This document shows, in pieces, positions 44,813 through 52,669 of a stretch of 64,000 nt of DNA (the first letter of the stretch is position 1; each line of letters opens with the position of its first letter). Location: positions 1,123,609-1,187,608 of the forward strand of contig MU004199.1 in assembly GCA_010093605.1 (NCBI GenBank), given 5' to 3'. Made by a program: the position numbers and the translations under genes. The DNA is from Lophium mytilinum (Eukaryota; Ascomycota; Dothideomycetes; Mytilinidiales; Mytilinidiaceae). The notes under the pieces were generated by a model. It did not search any database and was not told the DNA's origin. It saw only the letters and a program-made list of their open reading frames with translations.

Positions 44813-45356
44813 GCAGCCCTTTCACCGCGTTTTTATTGGTTCGCTTAAAGCGCTGACTCCTCTAAAGTATAGCAGATTCACCTAGAAGCCTAACAACAGG
44901 CGACCCCCATATGAACAAGCGACGTGCGAATACTAATGCATAGCTCGAGCGAAAGACTGCGCTACTAGAAGCGTAGGTACAGGGTCTACGGCCTGTCGTA
45001 GGAAGCATCGCGCAGTCGATAGGCTTGCTGTTACGCTGTAGCCTCGTGACGCAGGTCATGACGCAGGTCGTGACGCAGGTCGTGAAGCAGGTCGTGAGGA
45101 ACTGAATAAGTATGCGGAGGATTTTATTAGTAAGGACCTCACAAAGGTTTTTTATAGGCTAGGGGCGAAAGAGGGATAGCGTCTATTAGGTGCGAGATAA
45201 ATAGTTTAGGTATCCTCCTAGGCAGGTAGATATGGAGGTATATATCTAGCTATATACGTAGCTACGGAAGGCTACACGTGCAAGCATGCGTAAGAGTAAA
45301 TAGCCGGAGGAACTTTAAAGCCCTCTAAGCTTATTAAAACGCGGTGAAAGGGCTGC
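44813..45356. mobile_element. 0.54 kb element with 21-bp perfect terminal inverted repeats
   Basis: GCAGCCCTTTCACCGCGTTT(T) at 44813-44833 is matched exactly in reverse complement at 45336-45356. The interior is AT-rich and TA-rich without coding potential and contains a 12-bp minisatellite (CGTGACGCAGGT, about 4.5 copies, 45045-45098). It ends beside GCT repeats and a 15-base G run (45361-45375). The layout is that of a non-autonomous DNA transposon or MITE. A target duplication could not be defined with confidence, and the superfamily is unknown. Confidence 0.6.
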
Positions 45357-45586: not shown

Positions 45587-45740
45587 TAGAGCGTCTAGGC
45601 TTAGCCTGGGTTCGATTCCCGCTCCGACCCTCGCTAGCACAGTAAAAAAACCAAAAAAAAAAATCAATTCACCTTCTCCTTTCCTTCTAGAGCGCCCAGG
45701 CTTAGCTTGGATCTAAATCCCGCTCCAGGCTCGCCAGCAC
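45587..45740 (+). repeat. tRNA-like hairpin repeats, inverted copy
   Basis: Two units (45587-45640 and 45690-45740) separated by an A-rich tract. The first carries AGGCTTAGCCTGGGTTCGAT followed by TCCCGCTCCGACC; the second is more worn. The whole block aligns with the reverse complement of 41322-41486, including the A-rich spacer and ACCTTCTCCTTTCCTTC. The two copies form a large inverted repeat about 4 kb apart around paralog A and the 0.54 kb element. A weak A-box-like TTGGTTCAAGTGATAAGG lies 120 bp upstream, too distant for a normal tRNA promoter. Confidence 0.65.
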
Positions 45741-45916: not shown

Positions 45917-48900
45917 TTATTTCCTGAACGAGCTCGTCACTCCTTCCATGTTTTTGTCTTCTTGCTCCTTAGGTTGTACCTCATAGAAACCCTCGAGTTC
46001 GCGCATGTCCACACGCTCCGGAAGTTGCAACCTAACCCAGCGTTCAGCCTTTTGGACCATCAGCTCCCAAAGCTGCTTCTCCTCTGGGTATGTAACGCAG
46101 ATAAACCGTATCACAAGCGACGTATCCAAAGCTTCTCCTTGGACATTCAATATTGGAAGGATCTCTTGGCGGATCTCTTCACACCCGTGACGAAGTCGCA
46201 GGCCCATCTTGTTCAGAATTCGTTGGCGAGTATCGCTGTCCAGCGGAAAAGAGCCCGCCGCAGTCTGGATAGCGACTAGATCTTGGAGCGTAATTTCTCT
46301 CTCGATATTGTTGGATCGATGGACGCGGCGGATATGCTCAGCGAGGTTTTCCTTCCGCGTGAAGCCCTGACCAGAGGAGCGCTTGCAGTCGGCGAAGGGG
46401 CAGAATAGAGACTTCCTGGACCCCCCGTGCATCCTATGCACCTCACGCTCATGGCGAAGAAGACCTCCGCTGTAAGTATAACCTCGCAAGTTTTCACACC
46501 CAGCGATGGTGCACTTATATGGCCGGTCATGCTTGTCCATATGCTTACTACATGATCGAATTAGTTTGCATCAACAAGCTCGCGGGATGCATGTGGCATA
46601 CCTCCGTTCACATTTCCGATCAAATGTCTGGTCTAAATTTAGGCAATCCTTACGACAGCAGATGATCCTGTGCTCTGTATTCCGGGGTGGTTCCTCGGTG
46701 CGCGCGAAGGGCCTGATTATCCCTTGGCACGTTGGCTTGCGTTCACGATTGTTATCGATAAGATGCGCCGTATCGGGACTAGCCGTTTGACTTAGCGATT
46801 GGCTGAAGTTTTGCTTAAGTAAGCACTGTGGACGCCAACGTGCGAAGGGATACTGCCTGGACTCAAAACTGAAAAAAGTGGAATGGGCGAGATCCGGGGA
46901 TGGAGCTGCTTCTTCACACTCTGCACGCACGCTTGTATGCGAGGCCGCATTGGAAGCTCTTCGTGAGTGATAAGTGGCCGTAACTCGACCAGGTTGCCGA
47001 GGTGGAGGGGGCGATCCGCTCATATACGGAGAGATGTGCGGAGAGCAACTAGTAGGCGAGAAGTGTCGCTGAGTCTCCCCCACGAATATATTGCTTTGCA
47101 TGCTGGGAGGTGTCACCGGGCTCAACATCGAGTGGCTGCCTAATTGTTCCATACCAAAATCACGCGACATGTCGCTACAGAACTCTTCTTCATCAGAGTA
47201 ATTCAGAGCTGGCATGTTGCGTTCCGTCGAATGGTGGCTGATACGAGCATCTATAGGAAGTGAACTACTAAAGACTCCCATTGGGAAGTGACCCCGCGGC
47301 TGGGTGAGTACAGATAGTTCAGATCGTTGAGCTTTGTAAAGCCTGGACATACTCTCTTGATTTGTGTTGTTATCGACAGCAATAAAGCTGGTCCATCTTC
47401 CGGTTACTTTATATAGTGTTCCAATTCGTTCTGCTTCCTTTCTTATCATGTCATCCAAGGAAACATTCGCGTCGTCTTTGCTAGCGTTTGGGACATCCTG
47501 ATGCATCCAGCTCCTACCGATTTCCAGGTCCAACATCGCAGCTTTAGCGGCAAGATGATGAATGGCATTCGTGCCAGCAGGTGTTCCTTTGATAGTGAGG
47601 TATGTAGCAATGGCCTCGCCAGACGCGGCCTTTGCCCTTATGTTGACCGTCTGCGGATCACTCGTGGCGTGTTGTGGAAAAAGAAAGAAGATCGATCGAC
47701 GAGCAAATGTATGCAAAGAGGGAAGGTGATAAGGTGCTCGAATGTACCCAGGTATTTTGGATGATGGTAGGGTGTTCAGCTGCCTTGGTGAGATTGCAGT
47801 CAAGCCATCAATCTCAACCTCGCATTGCCAGGTCGTTGGCATAAGAGCCCCCTTCAACATGCGGATGACTCTTTCCGCCCATTTGCCCTTTCCGTCAGCG
47901 GCTACAACCTCAGCGTACCCTCCACCTTGTCGGCCAATACCTTCAATCAGCCGGTGTGATACTGAGTCTCCAATGCCAAGAGCAAAAAAGCGCACTGCGC
48001 CTCCAGCCTTTTCCCTAGATTTGGCGACATAGTCAAGCAGCTTCTCTGTATCCCAAACTTCTCCGTCTGTGAGAACCATGATCTGAGTTGTAAAGTTCCT
48101 TTGCTCAATTCGGTTCTCGAAAGCTGCGGCAATGGCCGAAAGAATTTCAGTACCGCCCATATTTGCATCAAAGCCGTTGGATAAGTGGTGCGTAGCTGCA
48201 TCCAGGCTCTGCTGTGTGTACTCTTGGGAAGAGCCCCAGAGTGACGAAAAATTGTCGCCAAAGGAGTAAATATTAAAGAAAGATTTCTCTGGAAGGCTCT
48301 TTAAAAAGACGCCCAAAGTCTCCCGTAGCGTGTTGATCTTTTCACCCATCATCGAGCCTGACCGATCCGCGACAAAAATGATCTCTCCCTCAAAGCGATT
48401 AGATGTCTCCGAGGTAGCATTCAAGACGAACAGATCTTGCGGACATAACGTGACCATCATAGCCGATTCATCAGTGCCGTCTATCGGAGCCTCCATTACG
48501 GCGCGAGATTCGACCAGGCTCGACCCCGAGGATAGAATTAGGAGGACAAAGTCCTTGCCTAGAGTAGCTGTTGAATCAGCAAGCAATGCTATAGCTCTGT
48601 TGGGGTCGAAATCGCGGTTCTGGGAGGCTTTGACACTTGAAGCAGCTTTCGCAAAGTTACTGAAGGTTGTCGTTGGTATTGGTTGGTTGTAAGTCGCTGC
48701 GGCGCCCATTTCGACCGATATCGGATGGGTGCGGCTCTCCAATTTGCGAATAGGAGTCAGGCCTGTAACATTGACTGTGACTGAAAGGCCATGATTTGAC
48801 GCATTACCCAACGCCGTGGTGGACGAAGGGAATCCCGGTGGCGGTAACCCATATCTTGGTGCGACCGAGGTGGGGATCGTTACCAGCACTCCTTCTCCTC

Positions 48901-49507
48901 CAATATCGGCCTTCAGCTCGTTCACATACTGGATTTCGACTTTGACAGTGGATCTTGCAGGAATATTGCCCAAATGCGTCTCGAAAACCTCAGGAGTGTG
49001 TTCTTCCAGCAACGCAGCGACGCGTTGCTCTGCTACTGCTTGCTTGTATTCCGCCCGAGCCTCACGCTTCGGCTTGATCTTCCCCTCAAGTGTCTTATCA
49101 TGGCCGACAGAGACTCTAAAGGACGTGATTACAGTGCCATCGTATAGCGGAAAGGTGTAGTTGGCGTCGGCGATGAGGGTAGCGGAGAAATTGGAGAAGG
49201 TTTGAGTCAGGGTCGTCCGGGAGATCGTCGACGTGACTTGGACATCGACCGACACATCGAGCAACGGCAAACACCGCAGCTCAGGTGTGGTTACGTTGCT
49301 CGTAGTTGTAGATGCGCGAAAGAGAGGGAATGCAGGACTTCTGTCAATATCGTCTTTGCGTGGACGCTTCGATGGACGTGGCAAGTTTATGGCGGCTACG
49401 TGCGCAGACTCAAAAACAACCCCGGAGGCAAGACGTTCCAACGCGGCATGCTCTTGGTGGAACTGATTGATGTAGGGCTGTCCAAACGTGTTTGAATAGT
49501 AGGCCAT
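45917..49507 (-). CDS. VIT-vWA protein fused to C2H2 zinc fingers
   Basis: Exons 49507-46602 and 46547-45917 on the minus strand, giving 1178 residues. The 54-bp intron has donor GTATGC and a TGTAG acceptor. Residues about 75-215 are a VIT domain (LPLLDVSVDVQVTSTISRTT, then FPLYDGTVITSFRV). Residues about 375-550 are a von Willebrand A domain with an intact MIDAS (DRSGSM, 381-386) and IMVLTDGEVWD. After a Ser/Pro linker come three C2H2-type fingers. The first is split by the intron: ICCRKDC at the end of exon 1 and KHMDKH at the start of exon 2. The others are YKCTIAGCENLRGYTYSG...HEREVH and FCPFADCKRSSGQGF...HIRRVH. VIT-vWA proteins usually bind protein partners; this finger set is common in fungal regulators. 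The split finger is strong evidence that the two halves form one gene. Confidence 0.85.
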
Positions 49508-50039: not shown

Positions 50040-52669
50040 ATGGCTCTACCCGTGTCGATCGGAGATGCACTTATGTTATCTAGATTGGCCTACCGACTAG
50101 GGCAGGCTTTCACAACCGGTCGTAAATCCGCTCCAGCAGAGTTCGAAGATGTCCAAAACCTTCTTCGTAGTCTGAGTAGAGCACTAAAGCTTCTGGGCCG
50201 AGACTTGCCAGATGGTTCTTCATCAAGTTCCATTGACGAAGACGAAGATGCGATCTTGCATATCGTCGGGAATTGCCGAAGCACGCTCATTTATCTTGAA
50301 ACTGTTGTTACGAAGTATGCTAAGTTGGAAGCCAATTCGAATAAACCCCAGACTACTCGGTTCAAGAGTTGGTCGGAAGATATCCGTAGGAATTGGAAGA
50401 AAGTCGTATGGACAAAGGAAGGGGGAGACCTGATGAAACTCAAAGCAAACCTAACAGCGCACACAAATTGTCTGACACTGGCGGTGTCGGCTGCCACAAG
50501 GTTCGTTTTTTCTCGCTTCTATTTGAACTTGAAGTGTTTCTGCTCTTTTTCGATATATTAGGCATGGGGAGGTATTCGGTATCGTAGACGGATCCACAGA
50601 GAGTTATAGTACAAAATCTTGGGATTGAACACTCCAAGCAGAGGGAACAAGTGCCCCAGATTTTTTATCATGGTATTTTACTGAAGATCGTCTTGCAGAT
50701 TGAGGAAAGACTTGCATGATCAACTTCAATATCAGGGCTAATGAGTTGTAGGCACCAAGGAGCAGTCTCACAAGAAAGAATCAACGCCATCCACACGAAA
50801 CTCGATGAAATACATCAATGGTATGCAGCGAATTTGCGAGGAGGGGAGTCTGAGACCCCTCGAAGTGCCAGAGCAGAAATTCGACCAGAACGTCGACCGC
50901 AAAATTCGCTACCATCGCTTGAAAAGCCGCCTCGTCTTGCTTTCTTTATCTCCGGAGCCTCGACGCGAAGTGCCTCCCCAGAAATCATATGTCCAATGGC
51001 ATCTTTTTCTGACCAGTGGCTGTCGAGCGAAGAAGCTGATAACTCCTGGAATATATTCCAATGTCGCTGTCACTCGGATACATCGTCCGCAACCATCGGG
51101 AGTCCGCATTCGCTACCCTTCCATGGTAACACTAATCGACGAACGTCTCTATAGTTCAAGAATGGTACTGACAAGCTCTAGTACTACCCGTCAGTTTACT
51201 TGTTCAAAATGTTGAGCCTTTGTCAAAAAGAAGCTGGCAAATCTACGTGGGCTCACCCCAATCGAACGCACCGATATCGCTCTGTCTTACCGACGTGTCG
51301 CCTAAGCGTACGTGGATATGTTAGTTGAGACTACTAATTGTACAACGGCTGATTTGCTACTAGATCTCGCAAGATTCGAGGCCTACGTCGTTGAGCTTGC
51401 GGTTTCTCGGGCCGCTCTTTATACCAAGCAAGGATTGAGTTCCATGCTAATATCTCATTCGGCCAGTGCTAATCAGACAGGACCTGTTTCCATTCTCGTG
51501 GCGAAAGTGTGAGGAGCCTCTAAGCCGTTTATCGGCTTTCCGAGCTGATCTTGCGATTAGACCAACGTCAAACATAGACTCGCCAGTCTCATTGGCTTTC
51601 ACGTCAAACGGTTATCGCTTCAGTCCTGGCCAGGTTGAGTCCCTCCAACTCTTGACCTACGGCACGCTACCTGAGACATCATCCACAAGCTTATCATTAA
51701 GTTTCGACTCCGCACAAGCTCTGCTGCGATATCCACATGCGGAGCTCGTTGTTCATTGCGCCGACCCAGCATCTGGCGAGGGATATGAGACACGTTATTT
51801 CATCCAAAGTATAAACCCTCTATACCGCCCACCGTTTCCCCGCAGTAACACGTTGTAGTTGATCATCATACAAACATCACAGTGTGGTCAAACCTGAGTA
51901 TTCGCCTTGAAAATGTGTCTTGTGTATCAGACAGTAACGGCAACGACGAATTCACGCCGTCTCAAGTCCAATGCTCTAAAGTCGACCTTTGTCTCCCTTC
52001 TACATCTGGTATGCATTCCTGTTGTTCTCTTCCGAAGGCAACTTTCCTAGCCGCTATCTAATGCCACTATCAGCAGTGCAATCTTTCGTGACCAGCCTCC
52101 AATCCATGCAACGCGAATTGCACATACTCTACCTACAGTACCCTCGCTTCGGCGAACAAGTTGTCTACCAACATGCCGTCGGTGATCTTATGGTACGACA
52201 CTGCTACCTCACCAAAGCACACCTTAGCCTCATATTCAATCCGCTTACCCGAGACTACCGCATGATCCTACTCAGTGGTTGCCATTCAGTCTCTGTTTGC
52301 CTAGAACGTGGGTGTTTCCTCCCGCTGAGCTCCATATATGATGAGCTATACTATAGGGGTCCTGTGCTAATTAAGCCAGTCCCTCAAACCTTCCTCCAGG
52401 ATATTGCCACTGCGACTGAACCCCCAAAACGCGACTACCCCGCTTGGTTTGTTGAAGTAACAGAAAATGGCACAAACATTCTAAAACAGTCTGCGGGTAT
52501 AGAATCGCTGCTCTCGCTACAGGGCACTGTCGCTAGTAACGCCCTTCGTAATACCTCCCCTTATTTCAGACAACAGACGACTTTGCTAATCTTTTCTCCA
52601 GCACAGCCTACAACGCTGCCGATTCGGGGTGCGCAGCAGGATGAGGATGAGGAGATGACAGAATTGTAG
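50040..52669 (+). pseudogene. decayed fungal-specific gene with STAND-type N-terminal region
   Basis: Starts MALPVSIGDALMLSRLAYRL and continues with the helical region EFEDVQNLLRSLSRALKLLG seen at the N-terminus of many large fungal proteins, some of them NACHT/ankyrin-type. A possible intron follows (donor GTTCGT, acceptor ATATTAG near 50502-50561). Beyond it, family-like segments appear in the right order but in shifting frames: IICPMASFSDQW...FQCRCHSD (about 50970-51070), SLAFTSNGYRFSPGQVESLQ (about 51590), FTPSQVQCSKVDLCLP (about 51950), and WYAFLLFSSEGNFPSRYLMP (about 52010). Several frame changes and stops cannot be explained by splicing, so the gene is probably broken. The last frame is open to 52669 and ends in an acidic tail (DEDEEMTEL). 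A reduced product from part of the locus cannot be excluded. Confidence 0.6.

Follow-up and report, generated by a model that had tools for sequence, protein, structure and literature searches.

Proteins that combine a VIT and a vWA domain occur across the eukaryotes; according to the cited parts of the published account, little is known of what their domains do (PMC10539598). One clade, VWA5A, is intracellular and nucleocytoplasmic and includes fungal members; its Dictyostelium relative, Vwa1, has a conserved C-terminal domain and was found with an F-box protein, and autoinhibition was proposed by the authors (PMC10539598). A second comparison is offered by the NLRs, for which integrated domains or decoys have been discussed in both fungi and plants (PMC12258605, PMC5067614). 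In the Sordariales, according to the cited sections, NLRs contain zinc fingers more often than any other extra domain (57 NLRs, with C2H2 fingers in 34), and the authors interpreted these fingers as sensors; one NLR carries the finger motif three times, and a CHK2-derived kinase was proposed as an integrated decoy (PMC12258605). Here, we describe a gene of the fungus Lophium mytilinum that is predicted to encode a VIT-vWA protein with three Cys2His2 (C2H2) fingers inside it. It lies in a stretch of 64,000 nucleotides, hereafter the window (C19:1123609-1187608 of a 43.18-Mb assembly with 24 contigs), and the genome searches reported below covered the whole assembly. A piece of a finger gene has been copied into the linker of this protein, and two sister proteins in the same genome carry other foreign pieces in that linker.

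Like the VWA5A/BCSC-1 clade represented by Vwa1, the window protein has a VIT domain, a vWA domain, a further conserved region and a conserved domain at its very C-terminus; unlike that clade, it holds a foreign finger triplet between the body and the C-terminal domain, a kind of cargo that section 22 of the published account does not describe (PMC10539598). The premise of the initial annotation, that VIT-vWA proteins are normally secreted or cytosolic adhesion or partner-binding proteins, was too narrow in view of the nucleocytoplasmic clade with fungal members set out in the same part of the literature (PMC10539598). NLRs with integrated decoys resemble the window protein in that part of another self protein has been incorporated into a scaffold of another kind, as far as the cited parts of these studies describe them (PMC12258605, PMC5067614). 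The window protein differs from them in its VIT-vWA scaffold and in the internal position of its cargo in a linker, and an immune role would be drawn by analogy; no NACHT or NB-ARC domain was matched in it by Pfam at E values up to 1. PARP4 and the inter-alpha-trypsin inhibitor heavy chains are its sequence relatives in VIT and vWA, and the PDB relatives of these two domains were PARP4 (E = 4e-29) and ITIH4 (E = 3e-16). No PARP domain was found in the Pfam scan of the window protein, and the C-terminal part of PARP4 was unmatched. The only NCBIfam model matched, TIGR03788 (bacterial sortase target, VIT-vWA region), gave the window frame 197 bits against a cut-off of 552 bits and was set aside.

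The minus strand from 49507 to 45917 reads as one gene, predicted to encode a VIT-vWA protein whose three C2H2 fingers are brought into frame across a 54-nt intron; the features below are on this strand unless otherwise stated. A 994-codon open frame has its start codon ATG at 49507. Exon 1 (46602..49507) comprises the start codon, VIT, vWA, the end of the core, the linker and the first half of finger 1; its frame is free of stops from 49507 to 46574, and the unspliced reading stops at 46571-46573. The VIT domain (residues 83-194; 48926..49261) matched Pfam PF08487 with E = 6.7e-34. The vWA domain (residues 375-533; 47909..48385) matched PF13768 (VWA_3) with E = 5.2e-25 and aligned with both paralogues; its metal ion-dependent adhesion site (MIDAS) reads DRSGSM, and GGTE and LTDGE are also present. 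The predicted intron (46548..46601) lies inside finger 1, starts with GTATGC, ends with CATGTAG and contains a branch-like site, ACTAAT. When its flanks are joined, the frame is kept into exon 2 (45917..46547), which holds the remainder of finger 1, fingers 2 and 3, the C-terminal domain and a TAA stop at 45917, and the spliced translation is a protein of 1178 amino acids. The initial annotation had described an intact VIT and MIDAS-bearing vWA frame running into a C2H2 finger, with a 54-bp intron joining the halves in frame. Both statements were confirmed, the first by the open frame, the Pfam matches and the zinc ligands, and the second, for a predicted intron, by its splice signals and its recurrence at the same place in two other finger copies. 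Bacterial promoter and terminator models, which carry no information for a fungus, gave hit numbers on the gene close to those in shuffles (3 against 3.1 and 5 against 3.3).

The finger triplet (residues 950-1045; 46319..46660, split by the intron) has three full ligand sets, C950/C955/H971/H975, C981/C986/H1001/H1006 and C1018/C1023/H1040/H1045. Its Pfam matches were below threshold (zf-C2H2_aberr, E = 6e-4 and 20.4 bits with a cut-off of 27; zf-C2H2, E = 0.08), and matches to solved structures, AEBP2 among them, were weak (best E = 0.026). A stand-alone C2H2 gene was found in the same genome at about C18:463578-465154. In the block that begins with EEPPRN and extends slightly beyond finger 3, the two genes share 84 of 112 residues, and in fingers 2 and 3 the helix stretch up to the first His is the same. 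Changes at the first, second and third codon positions of this block numbered 18, 16 and 59; the nonsynonymous divergence (dN) was 0.16, and the synonymous divergence (dS) gave no value (-1), which was read as saturation. Both other finger copies have an intron at the identical codon and in the same phase, of 56 nt on C18 and 57 nt on C13; the C13 copy is 71% identical to the window protein over 73 residues and two residues shorter. The finger match is not due to chance, because the intron codon and phase are shared with both copies, the identity to the C18 gene is high and the changes are mostly at third positions. The retention of the intron argues for copying at the DNA level. Taken together, these comparisons show that part of a finger gene was copied, together with its intron, into the VIT-vWA linker from a C18-type gene.

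The C18 gene is like the window gene in its fingers, in the position and phase of the intron and, more weakly, in the flank before the fingers; it differs in having no VIT or vWA match in the genome searches and in possessing its own C-terminal tail. In finger 1, the window protein has an Arg in place of the Trp of the C18 and C13 copies. This position is usually a hydrophobic core residue in C2H2 fingers, and the Arg does not supply one. The C13 copy (L037:1850-2282) showed an apparent frameshift late in finger 3, and an overlapping frame was seen by eye to continue with DTGS motifs resembling aspartic proteases.

The fingers are followed by a C-terminal domain common to all three VIT-vWA proteins recovered from the genome (residues about 1054-1160; 45974..46294). 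Both sister proteins, on C1 and C2, end with the pattern WELVVEKA..W, and the window protein ends with WELMVQKAERW. The domain is 22-24% identical to those of the sisters in the alignment, and none of 20,000 shuffles per sister reached its local scores of 72 and 71 against them, the highest shuffled scores being 70 and 67. At E values up to 10, a genome search with the C1 domain returned C1 itself, C2 (E = 5e-11) and C19:1169627-1169740 (E = 0.21), with no other match. The last of these corresponds to 46019-46132 of the window, and a chance match of so divergent a domain is unlikely because of this location right after the fingers. With a domain of the VIT-vWA family behind them, the fingers were therefore inserted between two parts of one family. 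This refines the proposed fusion: a single gene of unusual architecture stood at the sequence level, given the shared domain and the recurring intron, and the fingers proved to be embedded in the protein, not appended to it. Pfam assigned no family to the C-terminal domain of C1 or C2, with a sub-threshold DUF3293 match in C1 (E = 0.038). An AlphaFold2 model of exon 2 alone was discarded at a mean predicted local distance difference test (pLDDT) score of 37.

Three candidates were scored in a VIT profile search of the genome, and all were above the cut-off, which gave at least three VIT loci: the window gene, C1:3.013 Mb and C2:1.721 Mb. The two sisters align with the window protein to residue about 720, and foreign cargo was present in the linker between body and C-terminal domain at 3/3 of the loci found. 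This pattern is that of three loci in one genome. The viral contigs and the bacterial and archaeal genomes that were scanned yielded no confirmed relative, and such collections are uninformative on fungal conservation.

The C2 sister is a single open frame of 939 codons (L022:1299-4118, minus strand), with its cargo at frame residues about 697-795. Its first piece covers H3 residues R2 to T32, 30 of 31 being identical to the genome's own H3, with K14 replaced by Ala; it matched histone H3 in PDB with E = 1e-10. Compared with the H3 gene, it has 14 third-position changes in 31 codons and is without an intron at the place where that gene has one. The second piece resembles the H4 tail (17 of 23 residues), and K5, K8, K12 and K16 are replaced by Arg, Arg, Val and Met, respectively. 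These lysines of the H3 and H4 tails are normally acetylated. The third, which resembles the end of a ribosomal P-stalk protein, is an acidic stretch with SDEDMGFGFFD, compared with the SDEDMGFGLFD that ends two P-protein-like loci of the genome. None of 20,000 shuffles reached the H3, H4 or P-stalk score; these shuffle tests, like that of the SNARE piece below, were run post hoc on chosen targets after the resemblance had been noticed. In an unselected search, the genome's H3 was returned with E = 3.7e-5 and its H4 with E = 0.016, the latter accompanied by acidic or low-complexity matches at similar E values.

The cargo of the C1 sister lies at residues about 246-489 of a frame (L021:389-2146, minus strand) that ends in the C-terminal domain. 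It contains a synaptobrevin (R-SNARE) match above the Pfam cut-off (E = 6.8e-8), the closest solved relatives of which are VAMP4 and YKT6. Two SNARE-like loci of the own genome matched it in an unselected search (E = 7.6e-4 and 0.016), and no membrane anchor was seen by eye after the SNARE piece. SLFG repeats like those of phenylalanine-glycine (FG) nucleoporins are also present, with a Pfam match just below the cut-off; there are 9 FG pairs, whereas 1.25 were expected and none of 10,000 shuffles had more than 6. As negative controls, the linker of the window protein was scored against the H3 tail and the SNARE, and 4494 and 2552 of 5000 shuffles, respectively, scored as high.

The initial annotation had suggested a ligand-gated regulator; DNA binding, ligand gating and regulation by this protein would be conjectural. 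Different cargo in the same linker of both sisters points toward display or bait no less than toward a transcription regulator. We tentatively favor, at somewhat below an even chance, an intracellular VWA5A-like scaffold whose linker displays copies of self proteins, so that the fingers would act as a competitor or bait, similar to an integrated decoy, and not as a regulator that binds promoters. The VIT-vWA family would form the scaffold and the linker its display site; an intracellular location would be in line with the published clade (PMC10539598) and with the basic run of the window protein given below. In favor of display are the cargo at every VIT locus found and the H3 piece and fingers, in which the protein sequence is kept although silent sites have changed. 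A displayed piece would bind whatever binds or attacks the parent protein, here a finger protein of the C18 type. Binding, modification or cutting of the piece could then alter how the C-terminal domain contacts the body; alternatively, the output could be the engagement of a partner bound to the vWA and C-terminal parts. Features of the parents have been lost, namely the lysines of H3 and H4, the SNARE anchor and perhaps the core of finger 1, and therefore a bait or competitor fits better than a working regulator. The step from the Vwa1 and NLR precedents to the window protein would be one of analogy, and it is by such reasoning that we infer the function of the scaffold, display included. 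Recruitment modules are another role proposed for the displayed pieces.

Several points weigh against the display of baits. The window protein has a divergent C-terminal domain, with E = 0.21 at best and the low identity given above; a genome search with the C2 domain returned C2 and C1, not the window protein, and the finger part plus C-terminus of the window protein as a genome query did not return the domain of the sisters. Against PDB profiles, the domain gave nothing above noise, and the top match (E = 0.75) was rejected. The P-stalk match has a core of 11 residues. The constraint at the protein level could be partly inherited from the parent genes, and the neighbors of the C1 and C2 genes were ordinary-looking by eye on the side examined. 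The VIT-vWA body has no known signaling output.

The explanation that comes closest is a tethered adaptor or regulator, which we regard as possible and rather doubtful. Here, the fingers would sit on DNA or chromatin at sites of the C18-type protein, the VIT-vWA body and the C-terminal domain would bring a partner such as a ubiquitin-ligase complex, and the H3 and H4 tails and the SNARE of the sisters would serve as docking tags. The retention of every zinc ligand is consistent with this, as is the identity of fingers 2 and 3 to C18 along their helices up to the first His, and basic runs resembling a nuclear localization signal occur in the window protein (KRPRK at residue 47) and in the C2 sister (KKRK). 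The F-box protein associated with Dictyostelium Vwa1 would also suit an adaptor, on the cited part of that report (PMC10539598). However, the change from Trp to Arg at the core position of finger 1 is unfavorable to DNA-bound fingers, the SNARE without an anchor and the P-stalk-like piece do not match a chromatin theme, and the H3 tail is internal, without a free N-terminus.

The display of baits could be taken further, to a second type of fungal integrated-decoy receptor built on an intracellular VIT-vWA scaffold in place of an NLR. Copied pieces of vital self proteins in the linker (zinc fingers, H3 and H4 tails, a ribosomal P-stalk end, an R-SNARE and nucleoporin-like repeats) would then lure toxins or effectors, and a damaged bait would trip the scaffold. 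We consider this extension unlikely, while giving it some weight.

Properties of the linker bear on a further explanation, according to which insertions are tolerated in a long disordered linker, where transposons and pieces of genes pile up as by-products without function. A linker stretch (residues 801-877; 46877..47107) resembles the N-terminal flank of the C18 C2H2 gene, more weakly than the other matches: its local score of 88 was reached by none of 5000 shuffles (best shuffle, 85), and BLASTP linked this match with the finger match to C18. When the linker alone was used as a genome query, no match other than the window itself was obtained, which speaks for this explanation. The same linker contains an insert that resembles a miniature inverted-repeat transposable element (46718..46852, strand unassigned), 135 bp from TA to TA with 19-bp inverted ends whose arms are 95% complementary, and this is also in favor of piling up. 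One further copy was found at C13:926747-926892 (72% identical). Around the insert, a GT..AG stretch of 141 nt (46853-46713) leaves the frame open whether it is read through or removed, and 46713-46853 may therefore be a transposon-derived intron. Nevertheless, accumulation without function is quite improbable: the H3 tail and the fingers have kept their protein sequence while third positions differ, and the pieces come from highly conserved self proteins at every VIT locus found.

That a finger gene and a VIT-vWA gene lying side by side were wrongly joined is hardly credible: the stand-alone finger copy on C18 and a divergent C-terminal domain missed by two genome searches are compatible with it, but the uninterrupted frame of exon 1, the family domain of both sisters after the fingers and the joining intron at the same place in the C18 and C13 copies disfavor two separate genes.

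In the neighborhood, a divergent neighbor on the plus strand has a SesA-like N-terminal region (50040..50501; Pfam PF17107, E = 6.7e-4, 20.2 bits with a cut-off of 26.3), which is given as context only. Downstream of this region, many stops and shifting frames were seen by eye, and it may be decayed. A genome search with the N-terminal part returned only itself and C17:686335 (38% identity), neither of which is near the C1 or C2 genes; no SesA-like frame was seen by eye near the sisters among frames of at least 170 amino acids in 6 kb on one side of each. A SesA-type neighbor as a common feature of VIT-vWA genes was thus rejected. Downstream of the window gene, a 12-bp tandem repeat of 4.5 copies lies at 45044-45097, and two similar stretches around CCCGCTCC were noticed by eye at 45590-45740.

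In the literature covered (titles and the beginnings of abstracts, with few subscription papers), no report was found on fungal proteins of the VIT-vWA type that contain zinc fingers, SNARE pieces or histone tails. The repeated placement of conserved self-protein copies at the same defined site of a family offers a direct handle, as the proteins that bind or attack these copies would reveal the purpose of the scaffold. If this is a true decoy system, it would add a scaffold to the integrated-decoy idea that has been discussed for the NLRs of fungi and plants.
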